This document shows positions 20,573 through 63,452 of a stretch of DNA of 64,000 nucleotides, in pieces (positions within the stretch are counted from its first letter, which is position 1; every line of letters begins with the position of its first letter). The translations under genes and the position numbers were made by a program. The stretch covers positions 744,001 to 808,000 of the forward strand of contig NC_134031.1 of NCBI RefSeq assembly GCF_964204645.1, read 5' to 3'. The stretch is from Tubulanus polymorphus. Taxonomy: Eukaryota > Nemertea > Palaeonemertea > Tubulaniformes > Tubulanidae. The notes under the pieces were generated by a model. That model saw nothing but the letters and a program-made list of their open reading frames with translations. It was not told the DNA's origin and searched no databases.

Positions 20573-20578
20573 AATAAA
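20573..20578 (+). terminator. Probable Roquin polyadenylation signal
   Basis: An AATAAA hexamer about 665 bases after the Roquin stop, followed by AT-rich and T-rich sequence. An AATAAA at about 19855 is inside the last coding exon and so is unlikely to be used for the full product. Confidence 0.45.
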
Positions 20579-20929: not shown

Positions 20930-21150
20930 TGAGGGTTTGCGAGGTACAGGCAGCAGATTGTTTACGGCTGAAAGCAGATTGTCTTAGAGGGTGGGAGTAT
21001 AGACAGCAGATTGTCTGAGGGGTACAGACAGCACAGATTGTCTGAGGGGTACAGACAGCGCAGATTGTCTGAGGGGATGCAGGTTACAGACAGCACAGAT
21101 TGTCTGAGGGTCCCGACAGCACAGATTGTCTGAGGGGGTACAGGTTACGG
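20930..21150 (+). repeat. GCACAGATTGTCTGAGGGGTACAGACA minisatellite
   Basis: About seven diverged copies of a roughly 27-bp unit containing AGATTGTCTGAGGGG and TACAGACAGC, in the Roquin to GPCR intergenic DNA. Confidence 0.8.
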
Positions 21151-22552: not shown

Positions 22553-22625
22553 CCGACTCGAACCCGGGACCTACCGCGTACCAGTCGGACGTGCTAACCA
22601 CCAGACCATTGATATAACCGACGAC
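22553..22625 (-). mobile_element. tRNA-derived SINE head
   Basis: On the minus strand GGTCTGGTGGTTAGCACGTC resembles an A box, and CGGGTTCGAGTCGGG a B box at tRNA-like spacing. It shares TCTGGTGGTT with the copy at 5190-5267. The acceptor-stem halves do not pair well, so I do not call a functional tRNA. Confidence 0.5.
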
Positions 22626-22944
22626 GTTTGTAAGTTCGTCTGGCCAGTGTGGTGACCAGTCAGGTGTAATCACTGAGAATCAACCGGGGGTCGTAAGGCA
22701 CGTTGCGCTCTGAAAATACGAGAAATTAACCACAGTCTCATCGCCGAGAATGAATGTCATTTTTTGTAGCATTACTTTTCGTTTTTAGCTCGAAATACCG
22801 CGCATCATTAATCAATGGAGTTTTTTTAGTGGCTATCGTGAACCCACCTATAAGCAGCGTCACCGTTTCAACTTTATAATTGGTTACGAATTACAAACCA
22901 GTGAATGATTAGCTTCGTCACTGTAGTAATCGATTACACACAGT

Positions 22945-24090: not shown

Positions 24091-25050
24091 TGACGTCACT
24101 GCGTGAATTCGAGATCTTTAGAAAAATACCCGCTGTAATGAGACCCTCTGGGGCGAGCCAAATTAATACCCAATAAGAAAAATTATAAGTTGTTTTTTTT
24201 CAAGTTATGCAACTTGTTTTTTGTGTGTTTGGGACTGGATTACATGTTGCTGCCTCAAACTAAGAGTCTTAAACTAACCAGGGACACATTTTCACATCTT
24301 TAAACTGCTGACCACAAGGTCCCTTAAATGGGCGAGATCACTTCAGATCCTTAAGCAAACTCGGTCGGCGGCTCCATTCGAAATTTTAATCAGTTTATTT
24401 TGTGGCTCGCAGCTCTTTCTTTTCGCGAATTAATATCACGTGATCAGCTAGCGTACTATCGGATATAAACGGGACAAATGTATTTTTTGAAATGACGCAA
24501 GTGTATTACTACTCTTTAGACGCGCTACTTTCTGACTGTACTTATCACAGCGCCGCGGCACAGCGCATCAAAACTAGTTCACTCCAATTCAGGGTAACGT
24601 TTGGAGATCCCAGTACCTTCCAAGTTCTGGTAAAGTTTCGAAGCGGTGTCAGAAATCGAGTTCCCGGCATTTTCGGAACAAAATCAGAGAAATGAACCGG
24701 CGTGCCTTCGTGCCGACCCTAGTGCGCGACAGCGGCGACATCTGAGGGTAAGAAATGTTGCCGTTCCGACAATGCCCTATTGAAAAGAATAAATACCATC
24801 TTCCAGTTAAGATAAAATTCTATCTTTTTTTTGGCAAATAATTCTTTTCCTGAAATAGAAAACACACGATCGATGTTCACGAGCTGAATGATAGTCACAG
24901 TGCTCTATAACCCCTTTTTCGATAAATGGTGACACTCACAATTTTGTGGGTCATACGCAAATGTTATAACTCCTGGCCTGGATCAAACCACCACTCAAGA
25001 GTCCGAGGTTCGAGCCCGCGCACACGCGTCGCGCGCTTTTTGAGCAGTGT
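24091..25050. other. GPCR 3' region and EHMT upstream region
   Basis: No coding exon is supported; the open frame at 24492-24695 has no recognisable content. AATAAA at 24788-24793 could end the GPCR transcript. A B-box-like word (GAGGTTCGAGCCCG) at about 25005-25018 suggests a SINE fragment immediately upstream of the EHMT promoter. The sequence becomes CpG-rich from about 25018 towards the EHMT start. Confidence 0.45.
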
Positions 25051-25089
25051 GGCGCATGCGCGTACGGTGCTATCAATATGGCCGCTGCT
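25051..25089 (+). promoter_or_regulatory. EHMT promoter core: NRF1-like and YY1-like sites at the start codon
   Basis: GGCGCATGCGCG at 25051-25062 matches the palindromic NRF1 consensus (TGCGCATGCGC). The start codon lies in CAATATGGCCGC, close to a YY1 site (AANATGGCGGC). The pairing of NRF1 and YY1 sites over a short 5' UTR is common in housekeeping CpG promoters. Binding is inferred from motifs only. Confidence 0.45.
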
Positions 25090-40079: not shown

Positions 40080-40536
40080 ATGCAGAATTTCAGAACAAAG
40101 TTAATCATTATTTCACTGATATGTCTAGTGACAATTGGCGAGTGTCGCCGGAGAAGAACCGCAAAAAACTGTAAAGAAAAAGATAACCTGGCTCATCGTG
40201 AACAGATAGCTAATGTCGTAATGACCGGTACAGTGAAGGAACTTTACGGATTCGTGCGAACAGGTGGTGGATCTTATATGGGCGAAGTCGAGGTGAAACG
40301 AATTATGAAAGGTGAAAACTACATTGAAAAGTTGCCGACTAAAATGTCACACCGTCGCAGGAAGATGATCATGGTGGAAGGATTCGGCGATCCCGATATC
40401 TGTGTTAGCGACGTTCACAAGTACGACACGAGAATCTTTCTGTTGAAAGATTTAGGAAATGGACATTTACGACTAAACGGGAGCATCATTAGAATGACTC
40501 TGAGAAATATAGATCTGACTGAAGCGCTCGTCAAAG
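40080..40536 (+). CDS. AGRN: Agrin first coding exon, secreted NtA form (partial gene)
   Basis: An ATG in good context (GCCACGATGC) opens a signal peptide (residues 1 to about 21, KLIIISLICLVTIGEC). A basic RRRRTAKNC segment and a complete agrin N-terminal (NtA) domain follow: ANVVMTGTVKELY, EVEVKRIMKGENY, EGFGDPDICVSD, YDTRIFLLKDLG, NGSIIRMTLRNIDLTEALVK. The NtA domain of vertebrate agrin binds the laminin coiled coil and anchors agrin in basement membrane, and I know of no other widespread family that carries it. The exon ends at 40536 with one base of a Gly codon before GTAAGC (phase 1). The open frame runs 17 bases on to a stop and is not the real end. The rest of the gene (Kazal, SEA, EGF, LamG modules) is not in this window. 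Confidence 0.85.
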
Positions 40537-41837
40537 GTAAGCAGCAGCTCTAGAAACAGGTCTCAAAGTATTGTCACTTTCTGGATGCAATGTAGCCTCC
40601 TATATTTGACCGCATTTTACACGTTCATTCATATAACGTTGAATAGGTTACAGAGGTCCTTATTTCTACAAAATTGCGCGATGTTCAACTGACGTCTGGG
40701 TCAAAACCATCATCATCAACTAAACCACGTTGTACACGCACCAGTCCTTTTTATATCGTATATATATACACGAAAAATATGTATGAAATTTCGCTATGAA
40801 AATCATTCCGCGTTTCATTGCAAAGATGAGAGGTGTTTTTGATATTGAGTAGGACTCTCATAACGGCTCAGACTTACAGCAATACATAAACCAACAACAT
40901 AACACTGACATTCTAGGTACATGCACATAAAAGCCTCTTGTCGCGAATTCTTTCGGAACAATAAGAAAAAAATCTCAATTGCCACATGGCAGTTCCTGTG
41001 CATGTGTTTAACGCTATGAATATAGCATTGAGACGATCACAAAAAACCGGACCCTTAATTGATAAATGTTGGTCGTCGATTCTATAGAATCAGAGACGAC
41101 TGGCTTTTCGTTAAAGGCAAATTCTTTCAGTCGCCAAAAGAACCACGATTCATTCATATTTCGACCTAAAATCGGCTTTTGTTGATATGCGAAATCTTTC
41201 GGATTGATCGAAATGACGTTTTATTATTTCTTGAAAGATGATTTTTGAATCGTGAACAAAAAGTGATCTTTATTCAAAATTCGGCGTGAAACAAATTTGT
41301 TGTCATTGATGTACGAGTTTCCGCTAGTGTTGTGTATCCGGCCCTATTCACAATATTGCGCCCAAAGCGAGCGTCACACATTTTTTTCTTGAATATCTAA
41401 CGTTTTCTATGGACCATTTCCTTCATTTCTTCCTCTACACATACATTATACCAGTGCCTAGAAGATTATAATTTTTTTAGCTGTTATAATGGCCTCCGGA
41501 ATTGAATTTGAATTTCGAACATAATGACGGTCTTTGTTGGTCGCTAGAAATAAAAATCTTATCCGATTTCTTTATGCCAACAAACTACAGCTAAGAGTCT
41601 TAGTAAATATTTCACACCGAACATAAATATGTCAACAGTTAATCGGACGTATTTGACACTCGAGATTTTGTCGAATTCTATGTTAAGTAAGCTGGTAATT
41701 TTGTGTGTTTTAAGATTAAAATGTCGAAAAGGTTTCGCGTCGAACCGAGTTCGAAATACCAGCTTTACCTATGTAACATGATATTTGTATGCGTTTTTCC
41801 AAAAAAGAATATTACACCATTTACTTCGAAACATCTA

Positions 41838-41977
41838 GGGGCCAGTTCCATAGACGAGACTTCAAGTGTTATCAAATGTTATGGCTGTTCTTAAGAAGTT
41901 TTTAGATTGGCTATAGAACTAAGACGATTTTAGACTGGTTTTAAGCCTCTAAGCTATAATTATGGAACGGGTCCCAA
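41838..41977. mobile_element. MITE, GGGCCAGTTCCATAG family, best-preserved copy
   Basis: It starts GGGGCCAGTTCCATAGACGA and ends TATAATTATGGAACGGGTCC, inverted ends. The interior has TTAGATTGGCTATAGAACTA and TTTTAGACTGGT, the words seen in the dispersed copies elsewhere in the window. Confidence 0.75.
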
Positions 41978-44259
41978 AACAGATTTTTTACAAACTACAG
42001 AAGTTTTGATTCCCTGCTCCGTGAACTTGCCGACGCCGTCAGACAGTTGAGACTGTAATGCCGCCGGTTACTGAGATCACTTTAATAGCTCTTTGATGAC
42101 GTTTAATTTCACACTCTGTAGTGATAGATGGGTTCATATCTAATCTCGCAATATCTCGATATATCGCGGCCATCAATGATACACTTCGATGGATTCAAGT
42201 GTTTCACATTGCCATATATCAGAAAATTGTGCAAATGTTTAAAAAGACGAAAACCCACAAACCATGAATTGTAAAACTGATTTCATCTTTAAAATGTAAA
42301 AGGTAACGCCAGAAGGGTATCAACCCACAAAGCAATACCGGTCACACTAACAATCAAGTGAATTCAATTTAATTGCGACCCGCATATCTCCCAAATCAGT
42401 GGCCTTGACACAAGCACCATTCGAGTATATGATAATGATATACAAGGGTTATTGACTTGTATTAGAGTCCAGAAATAGGATCACCTTTCTTTCCAACCAA
42501 AATTAACCCAAACCCGCATAGGTCAATGTATTCAAACATTGTCACAATATCGAAGATGAATTTCGATGTTTATTGTTATAACGGATATCCGGTAGAATAA
42601 ATCCGGAAGAGCCAAATCCGCCATTATTCGCGGAAGGTTATGACCTGTTCCTAGATCTCGAGTTACAATAGTAAACGATTATAAGGTCTCATGTTATATG
42701 AGATTGTTCCTCCTTTTATGAGATTATTGTGTCTGGGTTAATAAATTATCGTTTATATATACATGGATGTGACAAGTGACACATCTTTAGAGTCTGATTG
42801 TTGATTGTTTGTGAGAGGCTTCGTATTGTGTTCGGTCGCATGAGAAGATGTTCTCGATGAACTGCACACAAGAGGATGTGACCGACTTAAACCGTCGCGA
42901 TGTCCACCACTATTCACAAACTCAGGGACTCGGGGAGCTCTATTCTTCACTTCGGAGAATTCTACATGAATTCTCTGCTACACGCTCGGTGAACACAGAC
43001 ATAATACAAATACTTCAAAGGCTTCATTCGAAAAACGTTATCGAAATGACTTACAATGATATGTATAGGATCTCGAGTATAGCTGTCTAATCCTATTCGA
43101 CATTCTCTAGTATCAATTTCATTAGCCGAATTGCGTATGGAATTATTGATATAATTGACTCTGATTAACCCCGAAATGTAGAATTATCAATGGATACTTC
43201 AACAGGTGCTCGCTGCTGCTGCTGCAACAACGATTTCCGATGAGATCGTACACTTTTTATCAATGCTTCTCATCTATAGTGTGACTGAGTCTCTCTTCTT
43301 CTCTCTTTCCTCTCAGTAACTCTTACTCGTAACCGCAATCTCATCACTAATAGCTTTATCGGTCGTGTTTAAATTGGAAATCAATAAATGTCACTTTATG
43401 TAAATATCGATATATCGATTGAGCGGATGAGATTAGTTGAGATTGGAAGAACGTCTCTGTCTGGTAACTGAGTTGACTTCTGAGAGGAAATGTGTGAGAA
43501 GAGAGAGGATGCTGGAAGGGTTCATCTCCATCTTCCCATCAGAGCTGTAACTATATGCCCCTATCTATACAGGATATGAATAATAAAATGCAGTCCAAAC
43601 CATGCTAGATGCAGAATTGGAAAAGAATTTAGGGCGCTTTTGTGAAATGTAGGAACTTGCATCAAACGCAACAAGCTTGAAGACCATTGACAGGGGTTTG
43701 GGGATCTTATGAAGAAAATTTGAAATGTCAAGACTATTAGATTCATGGCATTTATATAGGCTTACTAACTCGTGAAAATGTGCCGTCAAAAAATATGGCC
43801 GGTGAAATGTCTTTGAAGGACACTAGAAATTCTAGACGGTATTGGACAATACGACTGGTATTGGACAATACGGCTGATACCAGCCTGCAGATTGTATGTA
43901 CGTAGAAATATATAGTAAAACTATGGAAATAATTGTGTCAGAATCATTGAGAGACCCGTCATTAAGAGTAGTTCCCGCGGTGACAGTTATAATGAAGTCT
44001 ACATTCCTACAAACCAATCTAACACTATATATCTACCCCTATACTACTGTGGAACAGAGTATAGAAGTTTGATTAGTTATGATCAATTTGTGTAAACATC
44101 CTCTTTATTGCGATAAATCACAAATGTTTCTTTTTAAATTGAGAATCTATGAACAAAACCGGCGAATACCCAATCTCCAACAGCCGGACAAGAGCCGAAC
44201 ATGAGCCGGACAAGAGTAGGGAATGTTTTCGGAAATCAAAAGTGTATATATTCATAATT

Positions 44260-44294
44260 CCTGAAGATGACTATTAGGACAAAAGTCGAAAAGT
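44260..44294 (+). ncRNA. Relic hammerhead-like motif
   Basis: CCTGAAGATGACTATTAGGA followed by CAAAAGTCGAAAAG resembles the motif on the minus strand at 9511-9543, with helix GACT/AGTC before GAAA. The GAAAC and helix are more degraded, so it is probably inactive. Confidence 0.25.
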
Positions 44295-47200
44295 CTTAAA
44301 TAGACTATTATTAGACTCAAGGAAACATTTCAGGCTTTTAAGCTTTTATTCTTAGCGTGGAATTTTGCATAATCTTTCAACAATCAGATTCACGCGAGTG
44401 TTTCATCAATAGTCGTTATTTGGGCTGATGAGTTTTGGACAGACAGCCGATGACGTCACTTTTGACATTTTAGTCTGTAGTTTTTTTCTTATTTTCGATG
44501 AATCTGTTTCGGCGCCGCCGTGATTCGAAAAGCTACACGCGATTTGATATTTCTCAGCAGTCACTCTCTCAGTTTAGACGTCGAATATGAAACAGAGTTT
44601 TTCGTGATGTCTGATGTTATGTTTTATCGGACAGAAATTAATCCTTCAGTCATAAAATATTCGCTGCCGATAAAACGAAACCGGCGGAAATTCGTTGTCG
44701 TCCATCTTTTGGGAATCGTCTGCTTGGAGATCTTGATTTATCGATCGCTCGCTGGCGCGCTATGAATGTTTGACTAGTATTTTATCTGAATCGATGCTGA
44801 ATCGGTTTGTGGTCGTCTCCGGAGATTTCTCATACTACCGTATCACTCAGTCCACCGTCTTTAAGTTTCGAAGTTCTCGATATAGTTTTAGCGACGGTCA
44901 AAATGCCTCACCTCACTTGCCACGGCATCGTTTCGATAATATTTTAGCAACAAGTGAGTGATTTTTTTGTGAACGCGCGGGCCAAATTTGACTCGGGCTA
45001 AGTCGTCTACATGTGATCGTGGTTCACAAAATGGAAACACTGAGCTCCGAGGGTGTGACAAATATTGTGTAAATCCAACCCTGAAATCGGTTTATCAGTT
45101 TTAACATTATGCAATGAAGCATCTTTTGTCAAATTCTACGATATAAGGGGAAAAATTGAAATGAATTGTAATCGCCTGGAGGAGGAGAGGGAGGTCCATA
45201 AACTCATAAAAACCAGAGCAGGCCGTTTGAGAAAAACGCAATTAGTAATCATACCGCAAAGTATCTCAACATTTACATTCTGAGATCATCAACACTAATG
45301 CTTCATACCAAAAATACATTTATGTATTTTCATTCACACTGATATTCTATAAATCTGAATATGTTCTCATAACAACAAGAGAAACAAATGGACAGATGGG
45401 TATTCAATAATTATTTGGCCCGTATAAATGGACGGATTCAAACCTCTGATCGTACAGATACCGCTGCTGCTGCAGCTGCTGCTATGAATTGTTACAGTGA
45501 TGTAATATTTAACTGTTGCCTGTATATATTGATCAATCCTAGGAAATTAATAATGATGACAATTTGATCTTCCGGTAATCAAACTCAATTACACTATACA
45601 CTGAAGAGCTCCGCCACACCGGGAAAAGTCGAACTCTTTTGTGATTCCCACCATCAGCACAGGACATCTCCTTGTTGTCACAGAGCCGACTGGCGTCGAT
45701 CACACTGTAAAACCCTACTGGTCCCCTACAACTATTTGTATTCTATGTCAGCACAGATGTATCGATCCTTAGATCCCATTGAATATTCTTAAAAATGACC
45801 CAGCCTTTTATTACTTTGTGGAGATTTTGTGCTTCTTGGTTATTAGAATATTATCGCATGAGTTATTTTTCCTATGAAAATGTCTTTCTGTGTTTCAATT
45901 GCATGTGAAATGTGAATACGTTTGAATCTGGAGATATAGATATGACATCAACAGCCTTCAAGTCGTCAATACGCGAGAGATGATTGTCTCTGAATTTTCC
46001 TTTATTGTACTGGGTTGAAATACAAGAATTTGTGAATACAAACTCTTGGGAAGATTTTATGTGATCTCGACTGACATATAAACGTGTACAAATAGTGCAG
46101 CTTATGATGATATTTCTAATGTAGCCTACATGACGAGAGATGAGAGGGAGGGGGAGAAGAAGAGGGGAAAGAGAGGAGAGGAGAAAGAGAGAGAGAGGAG
46201 AGAGAGAGAGAGAGGAAAGAGGAGCTCTCCACTCATCTCTCTGCTGAGATATGAGTACTCGATGTAATGACTCTATGTCTCTCTGAATGAACATCTCACA
46301 TGAACCTCAATGATGAAAAAATCAATTTCATTTTCACATCTTTATTTCAGATAATCCGTTGTTACAGGGTATGAACTATTATTACTTATCTTTACTTAGT
46401 TTCGCTGCATTTAAAGTTAAAAGCTTCATTAATTGCTACAGGAATCGCAACCACAATCGCTTCTTATGTGTGATGTTTAACATTATCAGCACAATTGCTT
46501 TTCGTGTTTTAGCGAATCTGCACATTTTATTAGTTTGACCAATTAACAATAAACTTGGATATAGCTGTAAACCGGCGATAACGGGTTTTCTGCCGAACGG
46601 ATAGAAAACCCTATAATTAATGTCTGGATTTTGTCTTTGCCTACCACAGTTCGTAGCTTAAAGAGAAGGTATGGCAATTGAGAAATGTGTGTCAGAATAT
46701 TCAAGAGTTCGAAGATATTCATAGTCCCGCCTCCCTAGTTCAAACTATGGGTTAATTCATACAATGAAACCTTGCGGAATAATTTGACTTCTTTATATAG
46801 AATTACCCCCTCTTACACTGGTATAATGTTATATATAAATGTTTATAATAGTAGCCTCCAATTTCTATTATATTTCCATTATGAATATTTTGTTTGACGA
46901 ATTTATTGATGTTTGTTTACAAAGATCGCGAACACGTGTCAGTTTCTATAGCAGACGAATGTCAGGGTCACGTCATATTCCTTTAAACTTGTCCGCTTTG
47001 ATTTCATCCATAAAAATATATTAGCCGCTATTATTTACGTATGAACTTCCATAAAGAATGCTTCCTTAGCTCAAAGCACGTTTTACAAGAAGTACCTTAT
47101 ACTCTGATCATAGAGTCAGGTTGTACGTAATAACCCCCCCCCTCCCCCTGTAAAAATCGCTCCTGGTAAACCCACCCTCCGAAATTCAGTTTTCTATAAA

Positions 47201-48754
47201 ACTATGAAAATGAATCTTAAATCTTTACAACAATATCTAGATAAACGTATGTGCATAGATATCTAACTATTACTATATCTCTTCGTGTACAGACTACGAT
47301 TATAACATTTTTGATGTAGCTTGCTTTAAGCATTATACGTCCATGCTTTAAGTCACAGAATAATATCATTTTCAGTGTGTAGCATGTGTGACCATCACAA
47401 CGACAACCTTAAATTTTTTTGAAATCTATAAAAGTTTTTTCAACATAAGAATATTGAATTAACTTTTTTTTGGTGGTGGGAGGGGCGGATTTTTACCTAG
47501 GCGGAATATTTACCGGGTGAATTATTTACCTGTTGCCACAGAAACAACCTCCAAATCGTGCACGAGCTGGTATATCGCAGTTTAATTTTGAAAAGAATCG
47601 AGATTATTTAAGAAGAAGATGTTCTTCTGTCAGAAACAGCTGGCATAAGGCTGGGATGGCAGTTTATCGGGGGGGATGGTGTATCGGGGATGAACCGGGG
47701 ATTACCTACGATAAGAATTTTGGAACTCCCCACCAAAATCTCTCTAGTTTCCTAATGTGTCCATTCTCTATGAGGGCAATTAGCAAATCGCTGAGAAATT
47801 CCAATGAAGTGCTCAGTAATGACGCTATGATTGAGAGGAATAGAATGCGTAGATCCAACTAATTAAACCATTTAGAGACTGAATACATGTATACTAGGGT
47901 CTACATGTCAGTATGTCATTGTACACTTGATAAGTTGTAACCAGGGGTTATTATCGCATTGTTGACTGTCAATTTAGCTCAATAACTCGGTTGTGTGAAG
48001 TTATATTTGCATAGTTGAATAATTAGCGAAAATTCTACACGACTGGAATTCGGGACTCGAACCGTACCGGGTCACGTCAAAAAGTCGTCGTTGTTTTTGT
48101 CCGAGTGTCTTTAAGTGCAGTAGCTCCTCATAAATCATGGACTTAATGTTTCAATTTCTCCGAGCGTGCCTTAAAACTCGTTTTTTCTTCATCGACCCTC
48201 AATTCCGGTTCGCGTTACATAGAAACGCGTGTAAGACTAACGAACGACCGCGAAATATAATGTTTACAATAACTCGTAGATGGCGCATGGGTCGACCAGG
48301 TGTCTACTTTACGCTGATTACTCGTGTCCAAGTAGTTATATCGTTAATTGCAAATGGCATGAAATGAAGTGTATCCAGGGAAACCAATCTCAGCTTGGCT
48401 CACTTAGAACGAGTGGGAATTTGATATGTCTCATTTTTCCGACATTGAAACCACTTGGTTTAGATGTGGCGGTATTTATCAAGCCCTTCACATTTCCAGT
48501 AGCGATCTACATTACGCGCTGGCAAACGGTTTTTAGTGGACATTCTTTATTCAGATTTTAGCTACGTTACAGAGGAGGGTAGGAATCCAGGATTCAGCTG
48601 TAGATGATTATCTAAATATGGGAATTTCATTTGTTTTGCTTCTATGCATACCTAGGATTCATGCAGCCCCAGAAATTACATGGAGTCTTTTTATTCCAGT
48701 AAAGAATTCTCTTCCAAAATTAGTATATAGAAATTTTTGAAATAATGCTCAAAT

Positions 48755-49015
48755 ACCCGTCTTACGCGTCCGGGTTCGAGCCCCTGTTTTACGCGTCCGG
48801 ATTCGAGCCCCTGTTATACGAGTCCGGGTTCGAGCCCTTGTTATATACGAGTCCGGGTTCGAGCCCCTGTTTTACGCGTCCGGGTTCGAACCCCTGTTTT
48901 ACGAGTCCGGGTTCGAGCCCCTGTTTTACGCGCACGGTTTCGAGCCCCTGTTTTACGCGTCTGGTTTCGAGCCCCTGTTTTACGAGTCCGGGTTCGAGTC
49001 CCTGTTTTCCACGAG
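48755..49015 (+). repeat. 27-bp minisatellite with a pol III B-box-like word in each unit
   Basis: About ten copies of CGCGTCCGGGTTCGAGCCCCTGTTTTA. Most units contain GGGTTCGAGCCCC, close to the pol III B-box consensus. The period is a multiple of three, so long open frames appear on both strands. There is no A box at tRNA spacing. Confidence 0.9.
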
Positions 49016-49724
49016 TGAGGATGAAATTGAGCAAGAAATTCTTCGATATTTTTCTCTCTATTGATTCAATGTTTCTGACACGTTTTATTGAAAGGTTGTT
49101 ATCGGTTCGTCTCTGAACCGAGTCGTGCGCGCGTCAGCCGCAGGCGGCGCTGCACCCCGCTGAAGTACCTCCAGTAACTCTCATCCGGCGTCCTGTATCT
49201 GACAACCACCGCCACCATTAACAGCAGACGATAGAAATTACACCGCAAAACACTGCGTCTCCTGTTCATGACATCGAATAGAAACACTGTCTAGAAGACC
49301 GCACCAGCCCTGGGGCCAGACGAGGATGACATTACCAGGGCCAATACGGCCTGGTGCTATAGAGCGTGTCTGATTTGGTTGAGAAATGGTTTAACGACTA
49401 AAAAGCTGTAGCAATGTGTTTATATTAGTTCTTCGCAGACACCGAGACGTGTTGCTGTTTTATCTTAGTTTCGCGTCTCCTGTCGATTGATCGATCGTCT
49501 TAAAACATTTACTGACAAGAACGGGTTGGATAAAGTTTATCTGGTTTAACGCCTTGTCACGTGTTGCGGTCAGTTAATCTGTTTACTGGCTCATCAGATA
49601 GATACTGATGGCAACAATGCATGCATGGTCAGTAGAATGTTGTCAAGTTAGAATTTGACTCGCTGTAGACAGATAACAGATAACCGCGTTTACTGCTGGG
49701 TCTCGAGGCCGTCTGCCATCAGAG

Positions 49725-49947
49725 TCATAGCTTAGATTGAAGACCAGTCTAAGATCATGCTAGTTCCAGAGACAATCTAAAAGCAGTCGTAAGACTTAAG
49801 ATATTTTGGACTGTGCACCAGGCTTCTGGGACCGGTACCATAGTATTAGACATAAGACTAGTCCATGACCATTCTAGTTCTTATAGCCAATCTAACCGTC
49901 TGTGATCAGTCTTGATTGCGACCACATTTTGCTATGGAACTGGGCCC
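49725..49947. mobile_element. Two adjacent MITE copies, GGGCCAGTTCCATAG family
   Basis: The first (about 49725-49820) has AGACCAGTCTAAGATCATGC. The second starts near 49828 with GGGACCGGTACCATAGTATT and ends TTTGCTATGGAACTGGGCCC. The second copy's ends are inverted repeats. Confidence 0.65.
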
Positions 49948-50339
49948 TGGGCTCTGAAATTGAAGGGAGTATCTTCTTTGAGTCCACGGTGAAACAGCAG
50001 ACTGCCGCACTCCAAGTGTCACTACAATCGATGATTAAGAACAATGTACCTTCTTTCAATGCGATCTACAGTTACTGGGAAAATCGCAATTCTGCACAAA
50101 TAGAGAGTTTGAAATTGGGGTAAATTTGATACGATTAATCAAACATTGTTTCAGTGATCAGTTTATTTACCGAACAATGACTGAGACTAGCGCTGCGGCG
50201 CAGATAATAAATAATAAACAGCAGCTGAATTCTGTCACGTCACATCGACAATCATTATTACTGAACACGATTTAACCAGAAATTGAGAACAAAGTCAATA
50301 TTTATAGAGAAGAATAAGATTCCAACCAGTTTTAGTCGG

Positions 50340-50620
50340 TGTGCCGGGTCGGTAACACAGTCCCGGTCTATTCAGGGTCGGTGCTACAGCTGAGAGATAG
50401 GCCCGGTCTATTCAGGGTTGGCCCAGAGCTGGGAGATAGGCCCGGTCTATTCAGGGTTGGCCCAGAGCTGACTGAGAGCCATAGGCCCGGTCTATTCAGG
50501 GTCGGTGCTACAGCTGAGAGATAGGCCCGGTCTATTCAGGGTTGGCCCAGAGCTGGGAGATAGGCCCGGTCTATTCATGGGTTGTCTTAAAGCTGAGAGA
50601 TAGGCCCGGTCTATTGAAAA
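50340..50620 (+). repeat. About 39-bp minisatellite (AGATAGGCCCGGTCTATTCA)
   Basis: About seven copies of GAGATAGGCCCGGTCTATTC, AGGGTTGGCCCAGAGCTGG, with variants at the 3' half (GTCGGTGCTACAGCTGA). No coding role is apparent. Confidence 0.85.
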
Positions 50621-51299
50621 GGTTTGATTCCTTTTTTCTCGACCGCAGTCTAACTGGCGCCACGCTATTCCGTGCCGTTATACATCAAACGTCTCTGGGG
50701 CTCCGTTTTTACGAGAAAACGTTGTTTTTACTAAATCGGTTTTTATCGATAAATTTCAGCGGTTTTATCGGCTCAATAGTAAACGGTCGATTGAACCGAA
50801 CACTCGGAGTACTTTTAGCAAACCATGCAGTGTGTGTAAACCGGTCCACGATATGGTTTTCAGCATTTCATTTAGATACTCAAAACCTCCTTACGCCGGA
50901 CAGTAACACGATATGAACAACCTCCATTGACATCAATAAGTGAGCACCAACCCCATTAATATACTGACAGACAGAGACAGAGAGAGAAAGAGAGAGGGAG
51001 AGAGAGAGGAGAGTTAGCGCGACATTGTGGGTACTGTAAACTTGTACGTACAACCAAGCGCAATGTCACGAATCTATGACATCCTGCGCTGTTTTATTGA
51101 CAGCTCTGATAATTATCTCATCGCTAACATCACCGCTGCTGCTGCTGCTGCTGCTTCCCCGTGTTTCAAAAGAGAAAAATAACTAACTTCGATAAATTCG
51201 AATCCGTCGACGACAACGAGATTTCACTCTTTGAAGTTGTTTAAGTGGAAATTGTTCTAGAATCAGCGATGAATGTGATGTGAAAACAAACTCACTATA

Positions 51300-51630
<331 letters not shown>

Positions 51631-52199
51631 ATTGTCAAGGACTCTTGATGTTTTGACTTGTTTTGCCTCGAGTAGAATCTGAACTGAACCGTCAAACACG
51701 TTTGAAATCTATACACGATTAAAGGGACGCTTTAGGGCAACCGACAAATTCCCATAAATCCTACATCAAACAGTTTTACATCTGAACAACTTTCATATCA
51801 ATAGACATTTTCACTGGTCGTTCGTGGACTCATCCTTAATAGAACCCTAATCCATCCGACAGTAAGAGAGCGAGTGAGGCATATCTGTGCGCTATAAAAT
51901 GATGGTGGAAATCAGATTATTGTTGGTGTATATTCATTCGATTTGTGCCCGTCTCTTTCCGTCAGCAAATAACATTCAGCAGACCGACCACGGTTCTGGC
52001 GGAGAGTGAGACTTACTGGATAAAATCAAGGATGGACGGCAATATATACAACACCATGCGGAATATGTCAAAATAATGGTTTCTTTAGAAAGAATCCGCC
52101 GCGCTTTTTTTCTGTCATGAATACGATCGGAATGTAATCTGGCCAGGGGAGGTGGTTCAAGAATATCTGGAAAGGCTGATACAACTACCACAGCTATAT

Positions 52200-52480
52200 A
52201 TATCCTCATACAGCGATATCCAGCACCCAGTTCCACAATCCAGCACCCAGTTCCACATACCACCCAGTTCTACAGTTCAGGACCCAGTTCCACAGTTCTG
52301 AACCCAGTCCCACAGTTCTGGATCTAGTTTTACAGTTCAGGACTCATCTCGATAGTTCAGGCTCCAATTCCACAGTTCTGGACCCAGTTCCACAGTTCAG
52401 GCCCCAATTCCACAGTTCTGGACCCAGCTCCACAGGATCCAGGTCCACAGTTCACGATCCAGGTCCACAGTTCTTGGTCT
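52200..52480 (+). repeat. GACCCAGTTCCACAGTTCTG minisatellite
   Basis: About a dozen diverged copies of a 21-25-bp unit containing CAGTTCCACAGTTC. The unit matches the CAGTTCCACAG end of the dispersed inverted-repeat elements. Confidence 0.8.
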
Positions 52481-53039
52481 TGGTCAATATGTAACTCTAT
52501 CAGGTAATTGCAAAGTGAACTAATTGGTCTCCAGAGTCCCACTAAACTGACAACTGTGGAACTGAGTCGTGATCTTGACGACGAGTTTATTCTGATATTC
52601 TGTGATCGTCTATCGTGCTCCGATAAGTTCTCTATATGTCAGTTATTTGGATCTTCAATCACAGACGATGTTGTATAATCCACACCCGTTTCAGGTAAAC
52701 CCACTGATTTATAGAAGTAGTGACTGCAGTAAGTCCGACTAGCACCTGAATTAATCACATCTTCATTCTGATGTGTGGCTGGAACAGTAACCGTGCTGCT
52801 GGTTCTACCGCTCCTCACTGATATTACTCAAATCGATCAGATACGGTCAGAAAGGTCACGATTCTCTGAATTCCTGTTTACATCAATGATTTATTATTCA
52901 AAATAGAGAATATTCTCAATCAAACACACGCAGGGAGAAGGTTCTATTGGAAATTCGAATATTTGTGTTTTTCAAGCGCTAGAATGTGATCGAAATTATC
53001 AATGATATCAGTCAACACTTCAATCCTCACAGTCGCACA

Positions 53040-53755
53040 GTCGCCACCTCCCCCTCTCTGTGGCTGTACAGATCACCCCCTCTCCCTCTCTGTCGCTGTA
53101 TAGATCACCCCCCTCTCTGTCGCTGTATAGATCACTCCCTCCCCTCCAGTCGCTGTATAGCTCACCCCCTCTCCCCTCCAGTCGCTGTATAGACCACCCC
53201 CTCTCCCCTCCAGTCGCTGTATAGACCACCCCCTCTCCTCTCCAGTCACTGTATAGATCACCCCCCTCCCCTTCAATCGCTGTATAGATCACCCCTCCCC
53301 TCCAGTCGCTGTATAGATCACCCCTCCCCTCCAGTCGCTGTATAGATCACCCCCTCCCCTTCAATCGCTGTATAGATCACCTCTCCCCTCCAGTCACTGT
53401 ATAGATCACCCCTCCCCTCCAGTCGCTGTATAGATCACCCCCTCCCCTCCAGTCGCTGTATCTAACCCCCTCTCCCCTCCAGTCGCTGTATAGATCACCC
53501 CCTCTCCCCACCAGTCACTGTATAGATCACCCCCTCTCCCCTCCAGTCACTGTATAGATCACCTCCTCCCCTCCAGTCGCTGTATAGATCACCCCCTCCC
53601 CTCCAGTCGCTGTATCTAACCCCCTCTCCCCTCCAGTCGCTGTATAGATCACCCCCTCTCCCCTCCAGTCACTGTATAGATCACCCCCTCTCCCCTCCAG
53701 TCACTGTATAGATCACCCCCTCCCCTCCAGTCGCTGTATAGATCACCCCCTCCCC
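53040..53755 (+). repeat. 30-bp minisatellite CTCCAGTCGCTGTATAGATCACCCCCTCCC
   Basis: Over 20 copies with small changes (TCGCTG/TCACTG; GATCACC/GACCACC/TCTAACC). The start of the array uses a shorter unit with CTCTCTGTCGCTGTA. It creates spurious frames on both strands. Confidence 0.92.
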
Positions 53756-55764
53756 TCCTCGGTTACTGATGCCTCTGTAAATTGTAGTTTGTCACGCGAA
53801 TTTGTTTTACAATCTGTCGATATTAAAACGATAAAACTGGCGCATTTTTGTCATAGTTGAAACATCGCGACGCTGTTTATCTCTTGGAGTAATCATCTGA
53901 ATGACAGTCTCCAAGCTTTCTCTCTGTAACCGCCTCCAGTCGCCGTGAAGATCGAAATGGGAGTTATACCGCCGGATTGTCACGTGACTCATGATGGTAC
54001 GATGGATCGGTCACGTGATCGATAGGAAGACAGATTGTCTACGTGACTGATGAGAAGTTATGGGGTAATTTTGGTAATTGGATTTCTCGAAATATTTTTG
54101 CAATGGAAAATATTCGATCAAACCGGCGTAATGAATTCGACGTAAACGTTTTCACCCATCCACCGACCTGCGGAGTGATACTAGGGTGGCTCCTGTATTT
54201 CGATGAAGGCCGGAGCAGGTTAATTCCTAATGAGCGAATCTGCGACGGCTGCCGGTGCGGTCAGTACCCCTAACTCCACCGCGCAGCCTTTCAGATGTAG
54301 ACTTGCAGATAATTCGATGATGGGCAGTTACACTTCCGGTGGTTACCGGTGGTCATTATCGCGCAGTAACGGCGTCAGCTTACGCGGTCAGTGTATTGTG
54401 TGATAGGACACGTTTTATCACCGCGTTAGTGTCTAACAAACCTCGATTGAACGGAAATAAGATAAAGATTATCCGTGACTCGTAAAGAATTGCTCGCCAG
54501 ACATAGATAGAAAAACGACACCGACATAAACGGCGTATTTCACAGGAAATTAGCTGCAGTCTGAATGAGTCAAGATTCAGGGTCAAACAGCCCGTTAACA
54601 CAACGTAAATTCACACGAACAACGGCTTTTTTATTATCGATAGCCATTGAAAAGGTTACGATAAAATTCTCACTCTGTCGGTCATACGGCCATTGATGGG
54701 ACTGTAAACTCATTATCACGAGTGATTTGCGGGCGGCATTAGTGAGGGTTCTTAAATGTCGAGAATATATCTTACATTCAGCATCCACTTGCTTGGAGTG
54801 CAATACAGTCAATCCTGTTTAACTTAGCAAAATAGGAACCGACAGAATTGTTTCAAGTTAAGAACAGAAAAGAGAAAAGATCAGAAAATATATGAGGAAT
54901 GTCAGATTTCTAGGATTTGTCATGTTAGCCATGCTTGAGTAAGAATTGAAAGTGAACTGTTTTCAACTGTAAACCTCATAATTCAGATCTATGGAACTGG
55001 CCCATGAAAAGCTTGAAATCCTTATTCATTCATGGAGTTTACTTATATGCAAATGGCCTTGTGATGTCAATCAATGGCGCGCTATTGGTTCTGGTATTGG
55101 TGGGTTCGAGTCCATGTATGCTTTCAGGATGATTACTGCGTTCGAATCCCGGTTACGATTGAATTTACAACACGTTTTCTTTTCTATTGTAATCTATGCC
55201 TCGGTGGCCGTTTCTGATGGCAGTCGTGTGGTGTTCGCGATAGATTTCCACTATATAATCCCGTCGTCATCAGTAAGAATGCTAAGCCTCAGTCAAGGTT
55301 TTCGCTTGACGTCCACTTGACAGCTATTCGTAATTACCAACTTATGATACTTAAGAGTAATTCCATCAAGTGGGTATAAAGTCGATGATAGCAATGGCCC
55401 TGACTAGCGGCTAATAGCATTGTATTATAGGATAGGTCTATTCTAATCACTGCATTAGAAAAGGCGAAGGAACAAGGTACTAACAACCCTACGAAGACAA
55501 TAAGCTTTTCAGCACTGTTCTTTTACAGGAAGTTTCTGAAAAAGATGAAAAAAATCAAATGTATATTTTCAGCATTTTTGCATTTTCTGCTAAAATCTAT
55601 ATTTGATGGTTCTATCTAAGAATTCACCAGTGCAAGCGTCAATTAGAGAGTCTTATTCATCCCCGACATTGCCCTATAGCTGCCGCGCTTACATCGCCTT
55701 CACAGTTGAAATAGGGAGAAACCGTTTAAACGCCAGAAAAAAACAATTTTCGATTCGCTCGGTG

Positions 55765-55796
<32 letters not shown>

Positions 55797-56659
55797 GGTG
55801 CTGGGGCAGAGAATATTAGACTCTATAGAGTTAAAACTAGCTGTAAAAATGAATGGAAATTCCTATCGGTTGAAATTCCTTTACAATAGAATACAGACCC
55901 GTTACGAGTACTAGAGAATGAGGGAGAGAGAGAGTGGAGTTTGAGAGAGAGAGGGAGAGAGAGTGGAGTTTGAGAGGGAAAAACTGAAAGATAACACAGA
56001 TGTTTGAAATCAAATACGTTCACTTCGCGTCGTATTTAACGTTGAATATTTTATGCCGTTACTTTCAAATCGAATTTCCTTATTTCCGATAACGAATTAG
56101 AATTCGATTTCGTTTGAAAACCCAATCACTTAATGGCTGAGAAATAAAAAAGAAGCTTAGAGTGGGTAGGTGAAACCTCACTTTTACTGTTTGTGATTTT
56201 ATGGGTGATGTACACTATTTTGGTTAAATATAGTTCCTTATGGATGAAGAATAGAATTTTTAAAGATGTTTTATATTTTCAGAATGTTTGTGTATATACA
56301 TGTATATATGATGAGCTCAATGATCACTTTATATTCTGTATTGATTAACAATCAATCGATGATTTTGATCGGGCAATTTACAGCGTGTAAATTGAGGTCG
56401 ATGCTATCAGCTCGAGTTGATCTGATCTCGAACACATCTCCCATTGATCTACACGACGAACTAAACGGTATTTCCCGGTCTTGTTTCAGTTAGAGCACCG
56501 AGAAATGAGACGAAAACCTCTTCGATTTGAATTATTTGTTTCGCTGTATAGTTTGCTTCGTTTTATGATCACGACTGAGCTCACGTGATCCTTCTAAAAA
56601 CTGCCTCTTTACGAGTCCATGAAACCAAACCAACAAAACAGCAAGATATTTTTAATCAC

Positions 56660-56940
56660 TATTCAGTTCCGCAGTTGGAACCTCGAGTAAACTCTGAACT
56701 CAGGATCCAATTCCGCAGTTGGAACTTCGAGTTAACTCTGAACTCAGGATCCAGTTCCGCAGTTGGAACTTCCAGTTAACTCTGAACTCCGGATCCAGTT
56801 GCACAGTTGTGAGTTAGAGTTAACTCTGAACTCAGGATCCAGTTCCGCAGTTGGAACTTCGAGTTAACTCTGAACTCCGGATCCAGTTGCACAGTTGTGA
56901 GTTAGTGCTGTGAACTCAGGTTCCAGTTGCACAGTTTGCA
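56660..56940 (+). repeat. 44-bp minisatellite GGATCCAGTTCCGCAGTTGG
   Basis: About six copies of GGATCCAGTTCCGCAGTTGG, AACTTCGAGTTAACTCTGAACTCA. Two copies carry GTTGCACAGTTGTGAGTTAG, the same words as the palindromic MITE at 29188-29293, which ties the array to that element. Confidence 0.88.
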
Positions 56941-57884
56941 ATGAGAGTGAACTCTCAAAATCGTTTTATTTTCAAGGTTTTTACTGTGCTGTGATCAGAA
57001 CTCAGAACTCTATAGACCTGGGTCCAACTGACGTTTCGGGCATCTTCAGAATATCTATTTGAAACAGTCTGATGCGAAGATACTGAGTTTTTTTTTCTCT
57101 TAGCATCTTAGAACACTAAATTCCCTCTTTCTGGTAATTCCTTGGTCGCCAGAGTAGCATTATCTCTCGGATCTAGTAATCGGTTTAGAAACAACCATTA
57201 ACTTCCTCTACTGAAAATCAACTTAGAACCGGGAATTGAAAATGAAAAAAAAAAACACCGCGCTGTTTCAATCCCCCCATTCAATACGATCTAATTTCAC
57301 TCGAATTTTAAAATTAACTTTTTATCGCCTCAGTGAATGAAACATTGCGTCCTTCTTTCTCCGGCGTCTCTCTATTTTGTCTCACTCCACACGCGTGCGC
57401 GCGGTAACTCTTCACGGCGACGTCTCCTGTTGAAAAGGGAATTGAATTAAAACATGTGAAAGTAATCGAAGCCGGCGCCGGGGCAGGTGCGCGCAGGTGC
57501 GCTTCGCTAATTAGTGAGTAGTAAGATTGTGTTTTAAGGAGGCCTGCTACTGCTACGAAGAATCCTGTGAAGATTGTCTCTTTCTAACGGTAAATGTCTA
57601 TAATACGCCTACACTGAGTATCATCACTGATTTTATGATCTAATAAAATATAATATAATGATAAGAATTATGAGTCCGAAAAGAGACATAAAAACAATCA
57701 GCTCTTCTTTGGGCATCTTTATGTCGTCCATTAGTGATTGTATTTCTGTGTATAAAACTTAATGCAACTCGAAACTAGAATAAGAAGTTCTTACACTTAT
57801 ATTCTTAGCTCATTCAACGAATGAAAAAAAAAACCATATATTTCAATGGCTAATTAAAAAATAAGAAAACGTTACCGGAGTATG

Positions 57885-57975
57885 TATCGCGTGAAAGGTC
57901 GGGTTGGATTCGATCCCGGCAGCACCACGAGTGAAATAGGGACTGCCTAACTCACTGGGCCAACCTGACAAGTTG
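57885..57975 (-). mobile_element. tRNA-derived SINE head
   Basis: On the minus strand TTGGCCCAGTGAGTTAGGCA (A-box-like) is followed by CCGGGATCGAATCCAACCCG (B-box). Spacing is longer than in a tRNA without an intron, so a SINE remnant is preferred over a tRNA gene. Confidence 0.45.
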
Positions 57976-59688
57976 ATAGCGTCGTTCATGACTGAACCTG
58001 GTGAACGAACCTTGCGAATTCATGATGACGTCAAATTAGGGTAGACCTCTGACGTCATTAAACGTATGCGTTGTACTGAATATGATTTTGAACTACTTCA
58101 TTTAGTAAAGTCCCAAGGCGTATCTATGTATTATAAAGATATATATTCGATATTCTATAAAGTCTAGAGAGTTAGTATTTATAGGAATTGACCAGACATT
58201 TCCAGGGTTCAATAATCTATCACTTCCGCCAAAATGGTGACCTGTTCTCTCTCTAGGAGGGCGGGATTGAGTCGATCGTTTTAAACCACGAGGATCAGTT
58301 TTTGTTCGATAAATGATAAAATGTCATCGCATTTCAGCCGCATCAGACTCTTATCCGTTTAAACCACCGACTTATTTTCAGAGGGATTATAGCTTGTACC
58401 GGGGTGTATTGTCAGTTGTCGGGCGCTCAGGAGACGAGTCGGATGGAGTTTGGAGTGCTCCAATGATGTAGATACGGTAGTTCTGTGTAGTATGTGCACT
58501 GAACGCATCTCCCGCGCTCCTCGCTAGCTAGCTCTCTCTCTCTCGCTTCGTGTCCGGGTTCTGAGAGTGCGTGTGCAGCCAATACAACTCACTGATCATT
58601 CTTCACGTTCTCATACTAACTACACCGTGTTCGCGTTCGCATAGGTAGGAAAACTTACCTCATTCTTACCTCATCGAGGATAAGCGTTTATTCTGTTGAT
58701 GTTACAATTAATTGTTCATACACTTGGATTAACTACCGTATTTGTATCGCTTGATTGGATTATAATCGTCGGATACTTATCAGTCTTATCAGTTACTTAT
58801 CACCTGCACGTAAAAACGGAGTTAATATCAATTGCGATAGATGTGATAGCGTTAATGAATATCATTTAGTTTTATACGGTGAAACTTGAGAGTTTAAGTC
58901 GAGTTTTAGTTGTGACGATGATGATCGTTATTGCGTCGACGACTTTAATTTAGTAAATCGAATTAGAAATTTACAAATAGAGACGACTTCAGTATTTGAC
59001 AAATTATCCGTCTGTTCGACTGTAGTTTAATCTCATTCGTAGGTAGGATAGGATGATGATACATGTGTATTTTAAAGTTGATTTCTTCCTTTTATACAAA
59101 TATTCGATCAGTGTTTGTGGTTAGGATGAAGAATCAGATGATTCTTTCGGCTCATTTCACTTTTTCATTATCGAGTATATTGTAGTGAGTCGATGTGTGG
59201 TGTGTATTCTATTTCTATAAGTCGCGGGTTTGACAGTTGTATTCAACTGTCTCACCGAGCCGGGTCCCATTCTTCCAGTCTTCGCCCCGGCGTGTCTCTG
59301 AATTATTACCCGCATTCACAGTTTATCGCTTTGACATTTCTAATTTAAATATTCAACATCAATTAAAATTTGTTCCACTTGTCGTTCACGCGTCGCGGAT
59401 TAGCTGAAAATTGAATTCCTAGTGCGAAGCAGAATTTCTAATCCTATTTGCCGTTGATAGATTCTATTGTCGGCAGGTAACAGATATAGAAAGAAAAATG
59501 AATGATAAAAACCTGCGCTTAATCTGATATATGGAGGCAGTAACGTATTAGTAGAATAATAGTCCGCGCATTGGCGTGCAGAATTTATAGATAATCAGAT
59601 TAAGATCCACTTAAAGAAATCAAAAAGAATTCATTTATCAAGAATTGTAATCATGAATTTAGAATACACAACGTTACGGGCTCTCTCT

Positions 59689-59689
<1 letters not shown>

Positions 59690-59743
<54 letters not shown>

Positions 59744-59750
59744 TCTCCAG
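59690..59750 (+). repeat. CT microsatellite
   Basis: A (CT)n tract with one CCCCCC interruption near its start and one CACT interruption near its end. Confidence 0.9.
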
Positions 59751-59879
59751 AGAATCATCAGGTGTTTTTTTTAAATTTTCTATTAAGAAGTATTAACAGG
59801 ATAGTAGACTAACTGACTGATGCTTTCCCTCTCGTTGTTTATACATAGATTCATAGAAATCACATCTTGTTTATTTTAA

Positions 59880-59990
59880 CAAGCAGATTTTGAAGGCAGT
59901 AAAATTGGGATATTTTGAAGGCAGTGGATTGGGATATTTTGAAGGCAGTGGATTGGGATATTTTGAAGGCAGTGGACTGGGATCTGGGAT
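59880..59990 (+). repeat. 24-bp repeat GATATTTTGAAGGCAGTGGATTGG
   Basis: Four near-identical copies of a 24-bp unit; the first is slightly diverged (GATTTTGAAGGCAGTAAAAT). No coding role is seen. Confidence 0.85.
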
Positions 59991-61477
59991 AATTTCCGCA
60001 GTCTGTCAAATAAAAACCCACCACATTTGATGAAATATCCCATTTATTTTCTAACCATTTCGAACGAGATTTTGTAATTACCAGATCTACAATAAAGCCC
60101 CGCGCAACTATACACGCAACGCGAAACTCGATGTTTCGAACTGAATTGTAAATAGATAACTATTAAATTGTAATTAACTAATTTAACATTGATCCCAGTT
60201 TTATACAAGACGCAATCATGTAACGGTTTAGATTTGTTTAGTAAACACGTTACACACACTACCAGCAGCAGCAGCATCACGTAGTTATAGGTTTGGTATG
60301 TGAGCTAGGATCGAGAGAGGGAGAGAGAGGATGGGTGTGTTGATGTTGTATCTTGAGTATTACGTGTATAGGTAAATACCATACCACAATACATACACTT
60401 TATACCAATAACCACCGCTATCCCTGCCGTACTGGTTCAGCTCTTCTTATACCCCGAATAACCCGGATATCTCAACAGCCAAAACCCACTTATCGAACTC
60501 AATCGCTGGATATCAACGGCTTTTTTCTGGTAAAGATGTTAATTGCCACTTAAGCATATTATGAAATGAATGCATGATATATTTCATACATCAATTTCAC
60601 AGTTTTTTTGTTGGTTGGATCTCAATTTACTCTACTATGGATCCTTCAAGCACTGAATAACTCGTAATATTTTTCTAGCGCAAGCAGCTGGCTTATTCTC
60701 TTTTGGAAAATCAATCGATTGACAGCTATTTCTACGATGCATATTGATAATTCTTTTAGAAATTGAAAAAATTAAAGTACATAATAATATTCTGAGATAT
60801 CATAATAGCTAATTAACCAGTCCCAGGATTTCATATATAACAAATGATAATTGAGGATATGATGATCATTGTCGGATTTATTTAGATACTACATGTATGT
60901 ACAGCACATAATTCGTGAAATATGTTAGCAACATGATGAATTTCAAAGTGCATTGCTAGTAACTTATACACGTCAGGTAGTCATTACTGGTTACAGTGGC
61001 TTTAGGAGGCAATAAACCATATACTCAATCGTTCCTTAAATACTGCTTAGATTGATAATAGAATCTATTATTTACCGAGATGGTGATAAGACCGAATTCT
61101 GACGTTTGTCGTGTGATAAGTTTCTGATAAGACTAATTTGAAATTCGTACAGTGTCTAAGCGAAGGAGTAGCGAAGTTGCGCAATGAGGATTGTGTCGGA
61201 TTTCAGGACGGTATTAACCGGATAGATTGAAGCGCAGACTGTTTGTGTCTGTGTAAAATACATCGGAAATATAACTGATTAATCATTATATGATGGATAT
61301 CACGTAACGTCGTGTAATCAGTGGAAGACATCGAGTATCGGATGAAAATGTCAAAACAGCGTTGAGACACTAAAATGACAGTCCTCCTAAAATTGTAGTG
61401 ATTTCACATACGCTGAAATGCTGGTAGAGTTACAGTGATCGAAGCCGCAGTTCGGGCTGTCTGAGAAAAAATCGTGA

Positions 61478-61817
61478 ATGCGAAAAATGCCAAAGATGAA
61501 TCAAGTTTATGTGTATTCACCTCAATCGGGGTCCACTAAAACTTCATTATTTACAGAACCGCCTAGTAAATCAGCGCTATGTTTGAGGTCGATAAAACGA
61601 TTTATACGCAGGAATTTACTGGCGATTCTGTGCGTTCTGTTCGCTCTGTTCTGGTGCAGTTTAGCCGTCGTTATGATTCTCGTTTATTCGCAATATTTAC
61701 ATTACGTTCCGCCGCAAAATAAAACAATAACAACAACAATGTTAACTCCAACTGAAAATGGAATTATCCTCAGACCGACCATTCGAGCAATAATTGAAAA
61801 GCCTTCCGATAAAACAG
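61478..61817 (+). CDS. AGRN: Type II membrane-anchor first exon, probable agrin transmembrane form (partial gene)
   Basis: An ATG opens 113 codons: about 45 cytoplasmic residues with a basic end (RSIKRFIRR), one membrane span (LLAILCVLFALFWCSLAVVM, about 47-70), then a Thr-rich extracellular stalk with an NKT glycosylation site. Positive charge before the span and no signal cleavage site predict type II topology. The exon ends at 61817 with one base of a Gly codon before GTAAGT (phase 1), exactly as the NtA exon at 40080-40536 does. Vertebrate agrin likewise uses a secreted NtA first exon or a short type II anchor exon, joined to the same body at a Gly-Thr stalk. Residues themselves are not recognisably conserved, so the link rests on position, strand, topology and phase. 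It could instead start an unrelated gene. Confidence 0.65.
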
Positions 61818-63452
61818 GTAAGTAATAGAACAAATCAACATTAGAACGTGCTCCACCGCTGTTTACTCACTCCCACTCCCATAAACAACGCCATCTCCCT
61901 TAAAAATAGTATCGAATAAAAAAGTCCTGCAGTCGCCCAAAATCCTATCAATGGCGTAAATTTTCTTTCCAAAAACCACTATATACTTTATATTAAGGTA
62001 ACTATTTTGGAATCTGATGAAAATCCATTATGGTGACGTTTATATGAAGTAGGTGTTTTCCCCGGAGAGTGCTCGCAGATACCCCTCAGTTTCACCATGG
62101 ACTCTGTTTCAGAGTTTCGTTTCGACTCCAGACACCCCCCCCCCCGTCAAACTGAACCATTCATCAATTACCTCATATATCAACCTCGTATATAAACAAA
62201 TCTATTGTCAATCAATATTGTGGAAAGGTTTCCAATTATTGTACCACTGTTTATCCGAAATCTTTGTTCTTCTACGTATCGTCATAAAGCGTGCGGTGCC
62301 TACCGGTCCCATAATGCATTATATATTTATTGAAGAATGATGGGTAATTGGGTAACAATGGATCCGTTGAGTGGTAACAATGTTAACCGTTGATCGCCGT
62401 TGGTTACGACCTGTGTGCAGACGACAGATTCCTGTTGTTCGGATAATGGCATCGCGATGGATGTCGGATAGCGGGGGATTACACCCCGTATTAAACCAAG
62501 CGTCCGATCAATTAACATTGTACAAACACTGGAGAAAATGCCACTCGAATACGCATCATCTAGACCTACGTGGTAACATCGAAATGGCTGAAACTGAAAT
62601 TATAGTGAATGTATGAATAAGTCTACAGTCCATTTATTGATTAATAAGATTTGTTTTTCTGTGGTATTTCGCTTAAATATTGGAATACATACCTATAGGA
62701 CCTTAACGTGACCCCGAGAAACTCAAAATGCCCCGGTCTGGTACCAGTTCAGTACTGATTTCAAGGACTGTCAACGAGCGTCTTCTATTTCTCAAAAATA
62801 AATCACAGAAAAAAGAACAATTTGCCCTACGAAATCATGGCACGTTTCATGGTAACAATATCAGTCTCTTAAAACAGTATTTCAAAATTCGTTGGTGAAA
62901 GAACGGAATTGATAGCGCCAATATTTTTCCTGTCGCTGTCGTTGTCGTGTCAGTGATAAGGATGTATTAATTGCCATTTTTCATTTATTATTAGATCACA
63001 TTGAATTAACAGAAATATCGCGTATATCAGTAAAAAAGTGACCGGTTTTGGCCGCATGTAAATCGGCCACAGATGGTCGCAGCTTTGATGCACTTATTTT
63101 CTATCTCAGCAGTTTTATCAGCTACATGTAATACGTTTAGCCAATTGGTTTTCGCTGAAATGAAGCTGATATAAACCACTTCCAATACTCTATGCCTCAT
63201 TGCTGCTGTGATAAGCGAGGTTGGCTATTTTTCAAACGCGTAGTTGTTTTTCTGAACTCATGTCCGCAATCCTTACCACGCCGTATGTCACTATATATCG
63301 TGCAGACCTTTTTTTTTGGTTAGTCCATGTGTATTTGAATTCAACTCACGCTAAGACCTCAGAGCTGAAGAATTCTCTTAAGAGTTTGAGCTTTGGTATT
63401 TTTGGTCAGCGATCGAAAACATGAAGAAATCCTACCTGTTTTGTAAACACCT

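Follow-up and report, generated by a model that had tools for sequence, protein, structure and literature searches.

Does an invertebrate agrin gene carry two alternative first coding exons, one opening a secreted protein and the other a membrane-bound one? A sequence-only reading of the window (the whole stretch of 64,000 nucleotides of Tubulanus polymorphus analysed here, C7:744001-808000) had proposed such an arrangement, in which an NtA exon and an exon for a type II membrane anchor would both feed an agrin body lying further to the right. The vertebrate layout on which that proposal leaned is well founded, as mammalian Agrn is described, in the available parts of the sources, as having two promoters and, as alternatives, an NtA and a TM first exon (PMC9643518; also PMC2874008, PMC1939731).

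Judged by the protein it encodes, the upstream exon is clearly the N-terminal domain of agrin and certainly more than a chance open frame. Its ORF runs from an ATG at 40080 to 40536 in the donor context AAG/GTAAGC (slashes mark splice sites), and its match to PF03146 (NtA) reaches 83.9 bits against a Pfam cut-off of 25.1 bits. The top five matches in PDB are all agrins (E 4.8e-13 to 6e-12), upholding the earlier identification of this exon as an agrin start, and on a simple donor score its donor's value is reached by 1 of the 2395 GT sites in the introns on either side of the anchor exon. Across the 267.8 Mb assembly the NtA model found two matches, this exon and a weaker one on another contig (C6:4677257-4682362; 28.3 bits vs the cut-off of 25.1). 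The second NtA-like exon has a phase 1 donor and a weak NRG2_N match below the cut-off. Beyond it, with no change of strand, come an exon resembling thrombospondin-1, pieces resembling LamG and short EGF repeats, these three assigned by eye; as read from the sequence, this is possibly an NtA/TSP1/LamG/EGF matrix protein. No NtA relatives were confirmed in viral contigs. The contig of the second NtA-like exon also holds a compact Hox cluster (C6:5318228-5634756), with ten Hox-class homeoboxes on one strand in 317 kb; nine of the ten were read, one being Lox5-like with AKLNGPN after the homeodomain and others Lox4/Lox2-like and Post2-like, signatures that we take to be lophotrochozoan, as the sequence-only reading had assumed. 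Mitochondrial COX1 found no match in the assembly. To the left of the NtA exon, RING and CCCH zinc-finger-like exons on the plus strand of the window (12663-28404) look by eye like a roquin gene, and a 386-residue ORF at 22930-24090 reads by eye like a seven-helix receptor, with no Pfam match at E 0.01.

When C7:806001-966000 was joined to the window in one coordinate frame, the predicted body was found right of the window, on the plus strand like both starts and 21.4 kb past the anchor exon. It begins with follistatin/Kazal exons, continues through two laminin-EGF modules and a ninth follistatin module, and ends in LG1-EGF-EGF-LG2-EGF-LG3, the LG exons having been joined by eye. Both features by which we recognised an agrin body are thus present: nine follistatin modules in tandem, the last of them preceded by two laminin-EGF modules, and three LG domains separated by EGF modules. 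In a comparison of follistatin modules 1-2 with 17 distinct chain sequences, human agrin was the best (whole-sequence E 7.6e-48, against 1e-19 for follistatin), with its best stretch at residues 171-317 (79 bits). LG3 aligns over its full length with agrin LG3 (chains 1q56 and 1pz7; 104 bits), while by whole-chain score the top rank went to neurexin-1-alpha, whose several LG domains add up to 174 bits, and the third to full-length agrin, with 162 bits. The gene is thus, on its sequence, an agrin of about 100 kb. Within it, an in-frame, Met-containing hydrophobic stretch at 88826-88997 (window frame) runs into follistatin exon 2, and could be an additional start or simply the acceptor tract translated by chance. 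By eye, ORF translations suggest that part of the region of the last agrin exon (140765-141052) recurs in diverged form about 3.7 kb to the right (144451-144880).

Table 1. Features of the agrin locus, numbered in the frame of the window
Feature	Position	Strand	Evidence or remark
First coding exon of secreted agrin (predicted)	40080..40536	+	Signal-peptide-like start and NtA domain; ends phase 1
NtA domain, residues 36-144	40185..40511	+	Pfam PF03146, E 9.3e-24, 83.9 bits
NtA exon splice donor GTAAGC	40537..40542	+	Sequence; donor score 23.4
Candidate alternative first coding exon, type II membrane anchor	61478..61817	+	Ends phase 1; in-frame TGA directly 5' of ATG
24-residue hydrophobic segment L47-Y70	61616..61687	+	Sequence of encoded protein
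Anchor exon splice donor GTAAGT (CAG/GTAAGT)	61818..61823	+	Sequence; donor score 24.1
Start of first body exon (follistatin 1)	83229 (C7:827229)	+	Phase 1 acceptor
Stop codon of agrin body	140902-140904	+	

The candidate anchor exon encodes 113 residues, comprising a tail rich in basic residues, a hydrophobic run, a sequon and a Thr-rich stretch. Five basic residues occur among the 15 that precede L47-Y70 and one among the 15 that follow, and the sequon (N81-K-T) lies C-terminal to the hydrophobic segment. The exon therefore reads as a type II membrane anchor, the basic-then-hydrophobic order fitting an N-in anchor that would place the sequon on the outer side. Its donor matches the consensus in full, and none of the 2395 GT sites in the introns on either side scores as high; an open frame of its 115 codons would be expected by chance with a probability of ~0.0009 at the local stop rate. 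The first ATG stands in poor context (T at -3), while the ATGs of residues 4 and 7 both carry an A in that position. Searched against the whole genome, the anchor sequence found no second good match, the next (E 0.005) containing stops. The CpG ratio showed no promoter sign at the anchor exon and is not decisive, at 1.40 upstream of the exon and 1.57 within it, compared with a 500-base mean of 1.07 (SD 0.37, 90th percentile 1.53). The ORF, donor, strand and anchor-like features reported by the sequence-only reading are thus all present, and the expressed exon that it saw in them is a prediction.

The first body exon follows the acceptor TTTCATTTCAG/AACCATGT at 83229 and opens AA CCA TGT in phase 1. 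The two upstream exons lie on one strand and each ends one base into a codon before a strong donor, as had been noted; in both cases the base left is G, and both donors fit the acceptor at 83229 by phase. The junction codon had been given as Gly, which comes from reading on into intron bases (G/GT); joined to the body exon, which starts with AA, it becomes G/AA, predicted to encode Glu in both isoforms, with junctions ALVK-E-PCERHYC in the NtA form and SDKT-E-PCERHYC in the anchor form. A small extra exon may lie between either first exon and 83229. The phase agreement is real but carries little weight, since phase 1 is the rule at the module edges of this gene: with LG edges left out of the count, the best or chosen site was phase 1 at 15 of 16 module starts (the exception being EGF3, whose best weak candidates are phase 0) and at 15 of 16 module ends (the exception being follistatin 3, whose best donor is phase 2), while three acceptors inside modules are in phases 0, 0 and 2. 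We accordingly rejected the phase match as independent evidence for a dual start and treat it as a check that was passed and that counts for roughly a factor of three, because any first exon placed here must be phase 1.

A dual start calls for an anchor-coding exon between the NtA exon and the body on the same strand, and for two first exons compatible in phase with a shared acceptor; the sequence holds a candidate for the former, and the phases of both exons suit the acceptor at 83229. An agrin gene with two alternative first coding exons, one secreted and one membrane-bound, is in our judgement the best reading of these data and a likely one. The two open exons, their donors and phases, their strand and order, and the body downstream are observed; we infer from them two promoters, the splices, the membrane topology and a division into matrix and membrane forms. 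Transcripts from an upstream promoter would join the NtA exon to 83229 and yield a secreted, laminin-binding agrin of basement membranes. A second promoter, inside the first intron, would give transcripts that join the exon at 61478 to 83229 as well, yielding a type II membrane agrin with a cytosolic tail of ~46 residues, one signal-anchor helix and the follistatin/LG body outside.

Three other explanations of the anchor exon were weighed. The one that survives best, though we regard it as unlikely, is that the 3' part of the exon, from a phase 1 acceptor at 61665, serves the secreted form as an internal linker exon, lying between NtA and follistatin 1, and that the hydrophobic stretch is a pyrimidine-rich acceptor tract read as Leu/Val/Phe codons. 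In-frame acceptor-like sites do occur at 61557 and 61665 (phase 1) and at 61660 (phase 2), with scores of 0.75-0.91 that fall inside the span of 0.63-1.02 seen for the 18 body acceptors scored, and a direct splice from NtA to follistatin leaves almost no linker (ALVK-E-PCERHYC). Such sites are, however, found at chance density (7.4 per kb at scores of at least 0.75, so that ~2.5 are expected in 340 bases, vs the 3 seen), and the top-scoring one, 61660, is in phase 2 and incompatible with the NtA donor. A linker exon would also leave unexplained the ATG right after an in-frame stop, the ~60 open codons 5' of the site and the basic cluster before the hydrophobic run.

It is less probable still that the anchor exon is real but opens another, unrecognised gene nested in the agrin intron, as might be suspected from the 21.4 kb that separate it from the agrin body and from the fact that type II anchors are common to many proteins. 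Between 61.8 and 83.2 kb, none of the 49 plus-strand ORFs of at least 50 residues (low-complexity ORFs excluded) had a Pfam match over the cut-off, a search that covers only families with a Pfam model; six weak matches fell below it (E 0.012 to 0.089). Among the best 46 segments of a codon-score scan, only repeat-like ones lie in this interval, although several genuine agrin exons escape the scan too. To the right of the anchor exon, the first plus-strand exon identified whose acceptor is in phase 1 is that of agrin follistatin 1.

The anchor exon is probably more than a chance open frame. A strict pattern (an ATG frame with a hydrophobic segment, positive charge higher before than after it, a donor score of at least 22 and phase 1), chosen like all the pattern settings post hoc, once the anchor exon had been seen, matched once on the plus strand over 222 kb, at the anchor exon itself, with zero matches on the minus strand and none in ten simulated strands of 222 kb. 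Four further settings over the same 222 kb, equally post hoc, gave 1, 2, 4 and 5 matches on the plus strand, 0, 0, 1 and 0 on the minus strand, and 0 to 2 per simulated strand; the last setting listed four extra plus-strand matches, of which two continue into follistatin exons 7 and 9. In the 42.7 kb interval from NtA to body, four settings from strict to loose, again post hoc, gave 1, 1, 1 and 2 real matches, and 1, 4, 10 and 15 of 200 simulated intervals held at least one. Codon and dicodon statistics were tried as a test of the exon and set aside as too weak. In synonymous codon choice the anchor exon stands at the 40th percentile of 265 non-coding ORFs; it also ranks last among 17 exons on both codon scores, with NtA near zero and several body exons negative; because real agrin exons, NtA included, also fail to stand out, these statistics neither support nor refute it. 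That the ORF arose by chance and the gene has the NtA start alone could draw on this codon usage, no better than that of non-coding ORFs, on the simulated intervals that matched the looser patterns (10 to 15 of 200) and on the single N-terminus of C. elegans agrin by 5' RACE (as given in the extract of PMC1939731), but with the strict pattern in 1 of 200 simulations, a donor above every GT site of the flanking introns and anchor features in the proper order, we consider it the least probable of the three and highly improbable.

In the order of its body (follistatin, laminin-EGF, follistatin and LG/EGF modules) the Tubulanus gene resembles vertebrate agrin. The NtA domain of vertebrate agrin spans two exons, whereas here it lies in one. 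For the SEA domain of vertebrate agrins, separate searches of ten ORFs lying between follistatin 9 and LG1 (128200-133500, window frame) found no match, and of two splice-like candidates for a Z microexon in the LG3 intron (140078-140755) neither encodes N-x-I/V in the needed phase. A further difference is that the anchor is not detectably similar to a mammalian TM-agrin start: the local score of 31 compares with a shuffled mean of 29.3 and is reached by 34% of 2000 shuffles, so that a similarity to this one vertebrate sequence was rejected as not significant. With vertebrate AGRN/Agrn the gene would share NtA and membrane-anchor first exons feeding one body, described for mammals in the accessible part of PMC9643518 and predicted here.

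C. elegans agr-1 has an agrin body in similar order. It differs in having one N-terminus by 5' RACE, with a signal sequence and, according to the extract of PMC1939731, no NtA found and no transmembrane form. Banyai and colleagues nevertheless include C. elegans, with Trichoplax, sea urchin and Ciona, among the agrins whose NtA domains they align (figure legend, PMC2874008), while a 2023 review, in the portion available, places NtA in few echinoderms only, with sea urchin agrins beginning with follistatin modules and those of two sea stars with an MFS transporter-like start (PMC10381214). Echinoderm, Ciona and Trichoplax agrins are invertebrate agrins of which some share an NtA domain with ours, but the available text of PMC2874008 and PMC10381214 describes no type II anchor start among them, and the open-licence literature, as far as its accessible parts go, yielded no invertebrate agrin with a membrane start. 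The SEA domain is likewise reported absent from the agrins of C. elegans (PMC1939731) and echinoderms (PMC10381214), and Ciona and amphioxus are reported to have Z microexons, which were not found in nematode or sea urchin (PMC12445529), each in the extracts of these sources.

The sequence-only reading went on to suggest that the dual-promoter design predates vertebrates, a claim that requires homology and to which the anchor sequence, scoring as shuffled sequence often does, lends no support; the homology of the Tubulanus dual start to the vertebrate arrangement is an open inference. It is conceivable, if somewhat doubtful, that the dual start is an ancestral bilaterian feature, older than the neuromuscular use of agrin in vertebrates and lost in nematodes and perhaps in echinoderms; equally open is the alternative of two separate origins of a membrane start at one and the same position in the agrin gene.

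With the exact exon ends given, the question reduces to a single RNA junction, which can be sought in any lophotrochozoan with a genome and RNA-seq. If transcripts confirm the predicted splices, the choice between secreted and membrane agrin would not be a vertebrate novelty tied to the evolution of the synapse, and the role of membrane agrin would become accessible in a simple invertebrate.
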